Positions 49,993-53,247 of a DNA stretch of 64,000 nucleotides are shown here, piece by piece (position 1 is the first letter of the stretch; each line of letters starts with the position of its first letter). This DNA comes from Cohnella candidum. GTDB taxonomy: Bacteria; Bacillota; Bacilli; Paenibacillales; Paenibacillaceae. The stretch covers positions 2,915,001-2,979,000 of the forward strand of contig NZ_CP033433.1 of NCBI RefSeq assembly GCF_003713065.1. The letters are read 5' to 3'. The notes under the pieces were generated by a model, which had not been told where the DNA came from, made no database searches, and saw only the letters and a program-made list of their open reading frames with translations. A program made the position numbers and the translations under genes.

Positions 49993-50379
49993 TTACCCTT
50001 TTCCGAACAACGGTTTTCGCACTGGCTTGTAAGTCGCTTGAGACTCTTTCGACAAATGCTGAACCTTGCTTACGTTGGCTTCGGATACCGTCGCGAACTG
50101 GCTGTCCTTCGACCAGGGATTTTCGAAATACACCCTTCTGGCTTTCGGGTCGAAGGCTTGGACGTGGTTCATGTTGACGAGGTTCGTTCGGTCCAATCTT
50201 TCAAAACCGACGTCTTTGAAAAGAATTTGAAGCTCTTCCATCGTAGTGGGATAGAAATACATGCCGTCCTTCGTATGAAACTCCGGACCGTCGGCTGTTG
50301 GCCGAATGGCAATCAAATCCTCGATATTCACCGTGCAAAGATTCCCGTCCCGATCAAGCAGCCGAATTTGCTCCGACAT
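49993..50379 (-). CDS. Stand-alone LytTR DNA-binding protein (no receiver domain)
   Basis: A 128-residue protein with a LytTR-type domain. The segment YPTTMEELQILFKDVGFERL matches the typical R-x-L-x-L-x-x-F region, followed by DRTNLVNMNHVQAFD and RRVYFEN. There is no REC domain, so it cannot be phosphorylated like AgrA. It is the last gene of the agr-like minus-strand operon. It may bind the direct repeats at 51830-51859. AGGAGGG precedes the ATG. Confidence 0.82.
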   Translation of the reverse strand: MSEQIRLLDRDGNLCTVNIEDLIAIRPTADGPEFHTKDGMYFYPTTMEELQILFKDVGFERLDRTNLVNMNHVQAFDPKARRVYFENPWSKDSQFATVSEANVSKVQHLSKESQATYKPVRKPLFGKG

Positions 50380-50411
50380 GATTTCTTCCCTCCTAGACGT
50401 GTTTTACAGCC

Positions 50412-50534
50412 TTACTTCTTCAGTTCTGCCGGAATTTCCGGGCGGTGGATCGCAAACAGGGAAGCCGTGCTGACGAATACGACCGCGAACACTGCCAGCA
50501 GCTTCGAAACGCCGATGACCACTTTTTTGCTCAT
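50412..50534 (-). CDS. agrD: AgrD-like cyclic lactone autoinducer precursor with serine at the ring position
   Basis: A 40-residue peptide beginning MSKKVVIGVSKLL, with an amphipathic helix (3-21), then STASLFAI and the tail HRPEIPAELKK. The tail matches the conserved P-x-P-x-EL processing segment of AgrD. Lined up on that tail, residues S25-L26-F27-A28-I29 occupy the place of the staphylococcal thiolactone ring, with Ser replacing Cys and thus predicting an ester lactone. A strong AAAGGAGGTGA precedes the ATG, and agrB ends 4 bp upstream. There is no other Cys/Ser candidate ending five residues before the tail. Confidence 0.8.
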   Translation of the reverse strand: MSKKVVIGVSKLLAVFAVVFVSTASLFAIHRPEIPAELKK

Positions 50535-50538
50535 GTTA

Positions 50539-51057
50539 TCACCTCCTTTGCAGGCGGATTAATGTCGCGGCTTGGATCGCGAAAACGACGCAAACCGTGT
50601 CATTCATGATAAGGAAATTCGACAGGACGATCGCTATCGAAATCAGTTTCAAATAGATGAAGTATTTGCTGGGGATCCGGGCTTGTCCTTCGATATTGGA
50701 AGGAGCATAGATCAGAACCAATACCGCGCTGAGCGTGCCGATGCCCCACATCCAACTCTCGTTCAAAGGAATATGAGGGGCTGACGCGATCAAAAGCGTG
50801 GAAACGATCGAACAATGGAGCGCTTTCCGCATATGCAAGCCGCCGGAGAAAAACCTCAAAAAAGCAAACGCGCCGAACGCCAGCATGGATTCCGCGAACG
50901 TCGAGGTCACAAGACCTGCCACTCCGACTAACACGATTACGACCAAGGTGTTCATGATCGCTTCCAAACTGAATTTCATGACTTCGACGCTTGCCGTCTT
51001 TTCCGGATCCACTCTCTTGATCGCTTGGGCAATTCGCAGTGCCAACGATTCAACCAT
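50539..51057 (-). CDS. agrB: AgrB-family membrane peptidase
   Basis: A 172-residue membrane endopeptidase that cleaves and cyclises AgrD. The catalytic motif GGLHMRKALHC gives His and Cys with the family spacing (x6). It starts MVESLALRIAQAIKRVDPE, matching the usual N-terminus; ATG 51069 is an alternative 12 bp upstream. Four to five transmembrane helices follow. Its start overlaps the upstream sensor-like gene by 8 bp. Confidence 0.9.
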   Translation of the reverse strand: MVESLALRIAQAIKRVDPEKTASVEVMKFSLEAIMNTLVVIVLVGVAGLVTSTFAESMLAFGAFAFLRFFSGGLHMRKALHCSIVSTLLIASAPHIPLNESWMWGIGTLSAVLVLIYAPSNIEGQARIPSKYFIYLKLISIAIVLSNFLIMNDTVCVVFAIQAATLIRLQRR

Positions 51058-51712
51058 TGTCCTTCGCATCCCTTTGTAGGCATAGGAACATCAGACCGAT
51101 CAGTGCGACGAATAACAAAATGGATATCATCAGGTAAGGGGGCTTGCTGGATCTGTATAGCAGGAAGTTAGCCGCGAAAGTCAGAATCACCGAAAACGTG
51201 ATGAGTAAAAACAACGGTCGGTTTTCCTTGACGAAAATTTTGCTTCGCTTGGATCTGCTTTGATGATCGATAAAACTAAACCCGCCTTTTTGCCAATGGA
51301 TAAAAAGACTGATCAACAGCATCATTAAGGACGAGATCGATTGAATCACGAAAGATTCCGTCGTATAAGGTTCTATTTCGGTGTGGCCGGTAAAGTGGAT
51401 GACGCCGATAATCGTGACCCACTGCACGATGTAGTTGATGACGTAGCCGGTGATCACCATGATCATCGAATTGAAAATATGTATGCGCAGCAAGAATGCG
51501 ACGAAGCAAACGAGGATCACAGCTTGAATCAAAGCGGATACCGCTTGAAGCGACTCGGTCTGCAACGAATTGGAGACCAGACTCAATACGACTGAAAACA
51601 CACCGAACTTAAGCAGATTTTCTTGCAAACTGAAACGAAAGAGAGAGAGCACGAAAATGACAAATGATAGGTTCTCTAAAGTGGAGAAGAACACAAAACC
51701 CAAGTAGCTCAT
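51050..51712 (-). CDS. Kinase-less paralogue of the AgrC sensor domain
   Basis: A 220-residue membrane protein (start ATG 51712, GGGGGA upstream) with about six transmembrane helices and no kinase domain. Its N-terminus aligns by eye with the sensor part of the divergent AgrC-like kinase: FVLSLFRFSLQENLL against FVFSFLQPQPKRLLQ, then FSVVLSLVSNSLQ against FAVIHSLYTDSLQ. It may bind the same peptide, act as a partner or decoy of the receptor, or serve in immunity. It is the first gene of the agrB-agrD-LytTR operon. Confidence 0.7.
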   Translation of the reverse strand: MSYLGFVFFSTLENLSFVIFVLSLFRFSLQENLLKFGVFSVVLSLVSNSLQTESLQAVSALIQAVILVCFVAFLLRIHIFNSMIMVITGYVINYIVQWVTIIGVIHFTGHTEIEPYTTESFVIQSISSLMMLLISLFIHWQKGGFSFIDHQSRSKRSKIFVKENRPLFLLITFSVILTFAANFLLYRSSKPPYLMISILLFVALIGLMFLCLQRDAKDNG

Positions 51713-51761
51713 GAAGCGAAGTTCCCCCGACATTGAAGTACAGTACTCTCTTGATAGTTCT

Positions 51762-51859
51762 ATTCTACCAGAGTTCTTGAAAAACGCGCGAATAATTTTT
51801 CGCATTGAGATTCACCGTCAAACGTGATATGGTCACATTATTCGACAAGTGGCGACATT
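51762..51859. promoter_or_regulatory. Divergent agr-like control region
   Basis: A minus-strand -10 TAGAAT (51767-51762) lacks a good -35. Two direct repeats TGGTCACATT (51830-51839) and TGGCGACATT (51850-51859) are 20 bp apart, close to two helical turns as for LytTR sites. They lie between the sensor-like/agrBD operon and the agrC-like kinase. Confidence 0.45.
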
Positions 51860-51897
51860 TTCCACTCAGAACGATTCACCAAAAAGGATGATACGCC

Positions 51898-53247
51898 ATG
51901 GAAGAATTTTTAAATCTAATGAAGGTCAGCATTATGGGGTCCATCCCTCAGCTGTTCGTTTATTTGCTATTCGTATTTTCCTTTTTGCAGCCGCAGCCGA
52001 AAAGATTGCTGCAGCGGCTTGCCCTCTTCGCGGTCATTCATTCGTTGTACACCGATAGTCTCCAGTTGGTGCTTCCGCTGCCCCTACATTTATTGAATTC
52101 CTATATTGGGCAAATCGTCCTATTCTGGTTGTTATTCAAAGACATCAGCGTGAAAAAGAAAATCATGCTTTTCATCTTCATTAACGCGTTTTTCATGCTC
52201 ATGGATCTAATCAGCGTCGCGATCGCGAATTACGCGCTGGGCATCTTAGACCGCGAAGCCATTTTGCACGGGATGTTTTTCAGATACTTGATTATCGTTT
52301 ACGGACAAATCCTGATCGTGCTCATCGCCTCCTTTTACATCCGGAACCGTTCAAATTTTAAAAGGTATTTTTCCTTGCTGTCCGAAGAGGGAAGCGGTAC
52401 TTTGAGCAAGACGGTCATTCTGATCGTCATTCAATTCATTCTCCTGAGCGCGCTTCAATTCGTGCACTTCGCCGGAGAAAAAAACAAGGAACTCACCAGC
52501 GTCATTATCCTTTTTTTAACCATCGCAGTTTCACTGACCGCTCTCGCCATGGTCATCCGCCTGATCGTCCGTTCACGAGAGCAAGCCGTCCGAATGACCC
52601 AGGATGTGTACGTCGAAGACATTCAACGCATGTTCGCCTCCATCCGGGGCCAGAGGCACGATTTCATCAACCATCTGCAGGTCATCCACTCCTTCGTGCA
52701 AATGGGAAAAACGGACGAGCTTAAACGGTACGTGACGGATCTTGTCCAAGAAACGCGGGAGATGAGCGAAATCGTCAATCACGCTTCGCCCGCCTTGGCC
52801 GCATTCGTCCAAGCGAAAACGACGGTCGCCGTCGCCCAGGGCATCGCTTTTTCCTTCGAGCTGCCTTCCGCGAACGCCAACGAGGAACGGCCCATCCGCG
52901 ATATCGACCTTGTCAAAATTCTAGGCAACCTGGTGGACAATGCGTTCGACGAGGTGTTGAAACTTCCTCCGGGAAGCCGTTTCGTGCACGCCTCCGTGCG
53001 ACGGGAAGAAGGAAGACTGCTGCTCGAAGTCTCGAATAGAGGGAGTGTCCTTAGCCGGGAAGCGAAAGAGAATCTGTTCAAAGCGGGTTACACGACCAAA
53101 ACGGACGGCAGCCATTCGGGACTCGGCCTCGCCATCGTCGAGGAGCGGACGAAGCATTACGGAGGCACGCTGGAGCTGCAGTCGGACGAGCAGTCGGGCA
53201 CCGTGTTTCGGATCTCCATCCCCGTCAAGGAAATGAAGGCCATTTGA
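51898..53247 (+). CDS. agrC: AgrC-like GHKL sensor histidine kinase
   Basis: A 449-residue receptor kinase. About six transmembrane helices (to about residue 225) form the peptide sensor. The SpoB-like helix RGQRHDFINHLQV holds the phosphoacceptor His (about 255), and the ATP-binding domain has ILGNLVDNAFDEVL, SNRG and SGLGLAIVEERTKHYGG. It should detect the AgrD-derived lactone. It is divergent from the rest of the agr-like genes. No receiver-containing AgrA is encoded nearby, so its phosphotransfer partner is unknown. Confidence 0.88.
   Translation: MEEFLNLMKVSIMGSIPQLFVYLLFVFSFLQPQPKRLLQRLALFAVIHSLYTDSLQLVLPLPLHLLNSYIGQIVLFWLLFKDISVKKKIMLFIFINAFFMLMDLISVAIANYALGILDREAILHGMFFRYLIIVYGQILIVLIASFYIRNRSNFKRYFSLLSEEGSGTLSKTVILIVIQFILLSALQFVHFAGEKNKELTSVIILFLTIAVSLTALAMVIRLIVRSREQAVRMTQDVYVEDIQRMFASIRGQRHDFINHLQVIHSFVQMGKTDELKRYVTDLVQETREMSEIVNHASPALAAFVQAKTTVAVAQGIAFSFELPSANANEERPIRDIDLVKILGNLVDNAFDEVLKLPPGSRFVHASVRREEGRLLLEVSNRGSVLSREAKENLFKAGYTTKTDGSHSGLGLAIVEERTKHYGGTLELQSDEQSGTVFRISIPVKEMKAI

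Follow-up and report, generated by a model that had tools for sequence, protein, structure and literature searches.

An Agr-like cassette in Cohnella candidum that may relay a peptide signal without phosphotransfer

The cassette and its genes

We analysed a 64-kb stretch of DNA from the soil bacterium Cohnella candidum (the window), which contains a signalling cassette of four minus-strand genes in the order SENS-AgrB-AgrD-LytTR. (SENS is our name for a sensor-like membrane protein.) The cassette resembles Agr, the textbook two-component quorum-sensing system (AgrB-AgrD-AgrC-AgrA) of staphylococci and Listeria, known in enterococci as Fsr. We propose, with a probability of roughly 55%, that this is a complete Agr-type peptide signalling cassette that works without phosphotransfer: the peptide would act on SENS, and SENS would control the LytTR protein.

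SENS heads the operon. Its open reading frame (ORF) lies at 51050-51805 on the minus strand and has 251 codons; relatives start at the methionine at 51712, which gives a protein of 220 amino acids (51050..51712). It overlaps the frame of AgrB by 20 bases, and gaps of 4 and 32 bases separate AgrB from AgrD and AgrD from LytTR. The membrane peptidase AgrB (50539..51069, minus strand) matches PF04647 with 67.4 bits, and its His79 and Cys86 are invariant across 30 aligned AgrBs. AgrD (50412..50534, minus strand), the signal precursor of 40 amino acids, matches TIGR04223 with 37.8 bits (cut-off 19). In AgrD, Ser25 opens the segment SLFAI, which is followed by HRPEIPAELKK with its P-x-E-L tail. The predicted ring segment (Ser25-Ile29; 50448..50462, minus strand; cleavage site presumed) aligns with the Cys-bearing segment of relatives, with Ser at the ring column. 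The last gene (49993..50379, minus strand) encodes a regulator of 128 amino acids that matches PF04397 (38.9 bits) and no other family, so it has a LytTR domain and no receiver. An initial annotation of this DNA had already noted the His/Cys pair of AgrB, Ser25 of AgrD and the lack of a receiver in the regulator. It also referred to a kinase; a divergently transcribed histidine kinase (51898..53247, plus strand) is indeed present. It overlooked the SENS ORF, which lies within the region that it covered and whose protein diverges in step with AgrB (r = 0.83-0.87).

The host genome contains a second SENS-AgrB-AgrD-LytTR cassette outside the window (L007:7749-9423), with no kinase adjoining.

A sensor domain without a kinase

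Family scans of the window's proteins gave no significant match for SENS. A Pfam scan of 48 SENS proteins returned three families, each matching one member, weakly; none of these is a family described for the membrane proteins of the LytTR Regulatory Systems (LRS) of Streptococcus mutans, such as DUF2154. A protein search found 24 SENS homologues, including the window's own, whose readable names are hypothetical or uncharacterised protein. An AlphaFold2 model of SENS (74 alignment rows; modelled from ORF residue 33) has seven helices, with a pLDDT of 92 and a pTM of 0.88.

We built a SENS profile from 41 Cohnella proteins. In a different family of the order, it matches, near full length, three proteins of 452-469 residues whose genes adjoin AgrB (E = 2e-36, 8e-31 and 3e-27). 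Two of these three were scanned, and both have a kinase ATPase domain C-terminal to the SENS region; in L116, a gene for a receiver protein lies just upstream. Against 21 kinases, the profile matched four that are neighbours of AgrB in other Bacillota (E = 2e-9 to 3e-7) and three more at E = 0.03-7, and it left 14 unmatched, including the kinase of the window. We also tried it on 121 decoys, made up of AgrBs and of kinase sensors that had been reversed or shuffled, and none matched at E <= 10. Because the profile matches the sensor regions of kinases and no decoys, we conclude from these comparisons that SENS is an AgrC-type sensor domain standing alone, without a kinase.

In other families of the phylum, several loci (L127, L129, L132, L135, L137, L139 and L140) have a SENS-like piece of 155-167 residues, after which come a kinase-like protein in its own frame (about 280-305 residues) and AgrB. 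These are apparently split AgrCs.

Distribution of the cassette

AgrB was found in 56 of 60 relatives. We took 80 AgrB loci, and 69 of these plus the host's two make up the 71 Cohnella loci; two fragmentary matches were left out. SENS lies upstream of AgrB at 69 of the 71 loci and LytTR downstream at 68, and at 64 loci all four genes are present in the order SENS-AgrB-AgrD-LytTR. At none of the 71 loci is AgrB followed by a receiver gene on the same strand. The site of the window's cassette also recurs: 16 of 27 loci have an adjoining gene for a PrkA-type kinase, and 15 have one for a MATE transporter, although several of the 27 end early.

More broadly, we sampled 198 genomes across the order, and 143 of them, from 31 of 43 genera, have a SENS match (E <= 1e-12). 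Among the matches listed, all but four of the frames are 207-324 residues long, and those four exceed 400. In a sample of the phylum, 18 of 398 genomes have matches (E <= 1e-6). Only four of the 18 have a full-length stand-alone SENS, namely the host and three members of its family; the remaining matches are kinase sensors or shorter proteins. Two genomes of family f4 of the order, G039 and G047, have 12 and 15 SENS matches, several of them neighbouring on one contig.

We also examined 90 order-level SENS loci outside Cohnella, which are not a random sample (30 came from search lists and 60 were taken from among the higher-ranked entries of a list). Both AgrB and LytTR accompany SENS at 68 of these, AgrB without LytTR at 6, and LytTR without AgrB at 4; a receiver and a LytTR domain in one frame occur at none of the 90. 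Three of the four loci without AgrB (L237, L239 and L242) represent one site shared by three genomes and lack AgrD as well, while the fourth (L227) keeps SENS, an AgrD-like ORF and LytTR. These are possible receive-only cassettes.

The LytTR regulator and the missing receiver

The initial annotation saw no receiver-type AgrA and proposed a genome search for a protein that joins a receiver to a LytTR domain. The complete host genome (5.29 Mb, one contig, 99.93% complete) has 4 LytTR matches and 133 receiver matches, and their coordinates never coincide, so no protein in this genome combines the two domains. Similarly, 37 of 39 scanned LytTR proteins from Cohnella cassettes match LytTR in Pfam, and none of the 39 has a receiver domain. 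The suggestion that the signal path differs from the staphylococcal model is probably right.

One cassette (L271:3949-5651) encodes a fusion of LytTR with GGDEF and EAL domains, which suggests that it is the LytTR domain that receives the signal. Within the window's clade, the LytTR proteins end in a basic C-terminal tail (KPLFGKG here, encoded at 49993-50040, and KPSLFWKK in several others), which is a possible contact with the membrane or with SENS. At eight other loci (L204, L208, L214, L217, L220, L222, L223 and L225), a further gene for a LytTR-only protein lies on the other strand and faces the LytTR gene of the cassette.

Co-divergence of the cassette proteins

If SENS, AgrB and AgrD share a peptide specificity, then they should change together. 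Across 13 kinase-bearing loci, the pairwise identities of AgrD, AgrB and SENS intercorrelate at 0.55-0.87 (SENS-AgrB 0.87, SENS-AgrD 0.61), and those of the kinase sensor, the kinase domain and LytTR intercorrelate at 0.65-0.84. Between these two sets, r ranges from -0.07 to 0.18, and the sensor region of the kinase has r = 0.07 with AgrB and -0.07 with AgrD. Across 24 loci, SENS and AgrB again correlate strongly (r = 0.83, Mantel P = 0.0005). In contrast, at 11 loci the kinase has r = 0.02-0.10 with SENS and AgrB, and its sensor has r = 0.04 with AgrB (Mantel P = 0.37). For the flanking MATE gene, r is 0.11 with SENS and -0.05 with AgrB (13 loci).

The trees give a similar picture. SENS and AgrB share 11 of 21 splits, as compared to 3 for SENS and LytTR and 5 for AgrB and LytTR. 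The AgrB tree has 14 supported splits; the LytTR tree conflicts with 10 of these and the SENS tree with 3. The simplest reading is that SENS-AgrB-AgrD form a central block that changes together and that the kinase is outside this block. Because these three proteins co-diverge while LytTR and the kinase do not follow, SENS, and not the kinase, is likely the peptide receptor. LytTR itself correlates with PrkA (0.61), MATE (0.53) and the kinase sensor (0.72), but it is not a clean marker of descent, because its tree has 6 of 10 splits in common with PrkA and only 2 of 10 with MATE.

Across 67 Cohnella cassettes, the divergence of LytTR tracks that of SENS (r = 0.81) better than that of AgrB (0.67), even though AgrB lies nearer to LytTR; the partial correlations with LytTR are 0.62 for SENS and -0.06 for AgrB. 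We count this, along with the four SENS-LytTR pairs that lack AgrB, in favor of the mechanism proposed below.

Proposed mechanism and alternatives

In the proposed mechanism, AgrB would cut and cyclise AgrD to give a predicted serine lactone containing SLFAI, and SENS would recognise the exported peptide and relay its arrival to the LytTR protein, which has no receiver and is encoded in the same operon. In the simplest version, SENS would hold LytTR at the membrane, and binding of the peptide would lead to the release of LytTR or to a change in its activity. LytTR would then act on the operon's own promoter and on further targets. The homology of SENS to kinase sensors, the conserved order of the cassette, the co-divergence of SENS with AgrB and AgrD, and the lack of a receiver-LytTR protein also count in favor of this proposal. 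All of these are seen in the sequences, whereas the chemistry of the peptide, its binding to SENS, the contact of SENS with LytTR and the sign of its effect, the regulation of the promoter and the targets are inferred.

A candidate for the operon's promoter is a putative extended -10 element (TGGTAGAAT; 51762..51770, minus strand), which is a consensus match only. We looked for such elements in the 120 bases that precede SENS and found one at 29 of 80 loci (3.7 +/- 1.8 in mononucleotide shuffles), and the aligned upstream regions contain no consensus -35. An extended -10 without a consensus -35 would fit a promoter that needs an activator.

Several observations weigh against the proposed mechanism. 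At 12 of the 90 order-level SENS loci, neither AgrB nor LytTR is within reach, and LytTR is kept without SENS, AgrB or AgrD, beside the PrkA gene, at 3 of 26 loci (L148, L157 and L169). Within the window's clade, LytTR correlates little with SENS (r = 0.21, P = 0.015) or AgrB (r = 0.16, P = 0.036) at 24 loci and tracks neither at 27 loci (0.14 and 0.02). The partial correlations of SENS and AgrB with LytTR also vary with the distance used (0.51 and 0.24 with Kimura distances; 0.47 and 0.30 with equal columns). The flanking PrkA gene correlates moderately with SENS (0.40, P = 0.0015) and AgrB (0.34, P = 0.004) at 13 loci, and neighboring genes could co-diverge by exchange of blocks without any shared function. 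Finally, we searched the regions upstream of 81 SENS genes for direct repeats of the LRS type, and no offset stood out, although a diverged repeat could be missed.

The initial annotation took the divergent kinase to be AgrC. If so, the kinase would be the peptide receptor and would phosphorylate an unlinked response regulator, such as a protein of the sporulation phosphorelay; SENS would be a decoy or a modulator, and LytTR would only tune the operon. In the window and at 13 further Cohnella loci, the kinase gene runs divergently from the operon; in a different family of the order, two genomes have it next to AgrB; and the host's 133 receiver domains could serve it. However, it is absent beside 57 of the 71 Cohnella loci, its sensor shows no co-variation with either AgrB or AgrD, and the SENS profile gives it no significant match (profile-profile probability of 23%). 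It matches SPOB_a and HATPase_c in the family scan, and it scores 118 bits against a DcuS/MalK model as compared to 33 bits against a staphylococcal AgrC model. We therefore consider it unlikely that the kinase is the receptor, and it is probably not a cognate AgrC.

Alternatively, SENS might be a partner of AgrB in producing or exporting the signal, or in self-immunity, instead of being a receptor. The strongest co-divergence of SENS is with AgrB, their genes overlap, and SENS has no output domain. On the other hand, SENS is homologous to the sensor domains of kinases, and SENS-LytTR pairs without AgrB exist, so this explanation seems slightly less probable than a kinase receptor. Least probable is a mixed receptor, made of SENS and the kinase together, that signals by phosphotransfer while LytTR regulates expression separately. 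Each of the two has several membrane helices, and their genes are divergent neighbors at 14 of the 71 loci, but most cassettes have no adjoining kinase and the two sequences do not co-vary (r = 0.08-0.10).

Comparison to known systems

Like Agr, the cassette has an AgrB with the His/Cys pair, an AgrD with a ring and a P-x-E-L tail, an AgrC-type sensor domain and a LytTR output domain, and the block of signal and receptor diverges faster than the output protein. In Agr, however, the sensor of AgrC is joined to a histidine kinase encoded in the operon, and AgrA has both a receiver and a LytTR domain. The cassette's sensor protein has no kinase, and neither its LytTR protein nor any other in the genome has a receiver.

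The other point of comparison is the LRS, described for HdrRM and BrsRM of S. mutans (PMC6193735). There too, one operon encodes a LytTR regulator that lacks a receiver together with a membrane protein of several helices (PMC6193735). In the LRS, the membrane protein inhibits the regulator. The cassette differs from the LRS as described there in that SENS, its membrane protein, resembles the sensor of AgrC and matches no S. mutans LRS family (HdrM belongs to DUF2154); that SENS is encoded before the regulator instead of after it; and that AgrB and AgrD supply a likely ligand. Direct repeats 11-13 bp apart and upstream of the -35 are typical of LRS; none were found here in the upstream regions of 81 SENS genes, although a diverged repeat could be missed. 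The words "ligand" and "pheromone" do not occur in the main text of that article (PMC6193735). Thus, the cassette is Agr-like at its signal end and, as proposed, LRS-like at its output end, and it fits the full definition of neither.

We tentatively suggest, at somewhat less than even odds, that the order has a large class of such systems, in which Agr-like signalling runs through a seven-helix, kinase-less receptor that directly controls a receiver-less LytTR protein without phosphotransfer; that LRS can have secreted peptides as signals; and that many of these peptides are lysine lactams instead of lactones or thiolactones. If true, then a peptide receptor can work without phosphotransfer in a widespread version of Agr, and a class of ligands is supplied for the LRS. 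It would also mean that four small genes make a compact module from peptide to transcription, and it would assign a function to SENS, a protein that any one Pfam family matches in at most 1 of 48 members.

Ring chemistry

The initial annotation singled out the serine of the AgrD ring. Ser25 is real but is not unusual: at the ring column, 43 of 67 Cohnella AgrDs have Cys, 23 have Ser, and 1 has neither. (Our search pattern found AgrD at 67 of the 71 Cohnella AgrB loci and none at 4; we inspected two of these four, L054 and L108, by eye.) In a tree built from 129 AgrBs, well-supported branches imply at least 8 changes for the Ser label and at least 6 for the Cys label, although the bootstrap is not fully settled. 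Across the sequences compared, Ser at the ring position is thus ordinary for this group and a common alternative to Cys. Ser closes the ring of known signals as well: a serine lactone was described for the autoinducing peptide of S. pseudintermedius, and the gelatinase biosynthesis-activating pheromone of E. faecalis is a lactone (PMC3673130). In contrast to those, the predicted rings here switch repeatedly between Ser and Cys on one AgrB tree.

Some AgrDs may use a third chemistry. We compared 136 AgrDs, near-copies counted, from the Cohnella loci and those sampled across the order, and numbered their residues back from the Pro of P-x-E-L. In 29 of them, Lys occupies -9, and neither -10 nor -11 is Cys or Ser. 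In 27 of these 29, the residue at -10, the usual place of Cys or Ser, is non-polar, and 28 of the 29 loci keep the His/Cys motif of AgrB. (Loci of this class include L142, L204, L217, L240, L253 and L259.) The rings of ordinary autoinducing peptides are 16-membered, and by arithmetic a lactam of the Lys side chain over four residues would also give a 16-membered ring, as does Cys or Ser over five. The lysine-class AgrDs may thus be closed as four-residue Lys lactams, but the ring-size argument is only suggestive, because cleavage at the same site would not yield a 16-membered ring from the AgrDs with a nucleophile at -9 (7 Ser) or at -11 (6 Cys and 2 Ser). The NCBIfam AgrD model does not recognise the AgrD of the host's second cassette (L007:8912-9031), which is of the lysine type: its ring column holds Ala, and a Lys adjoins it (AKFWW).

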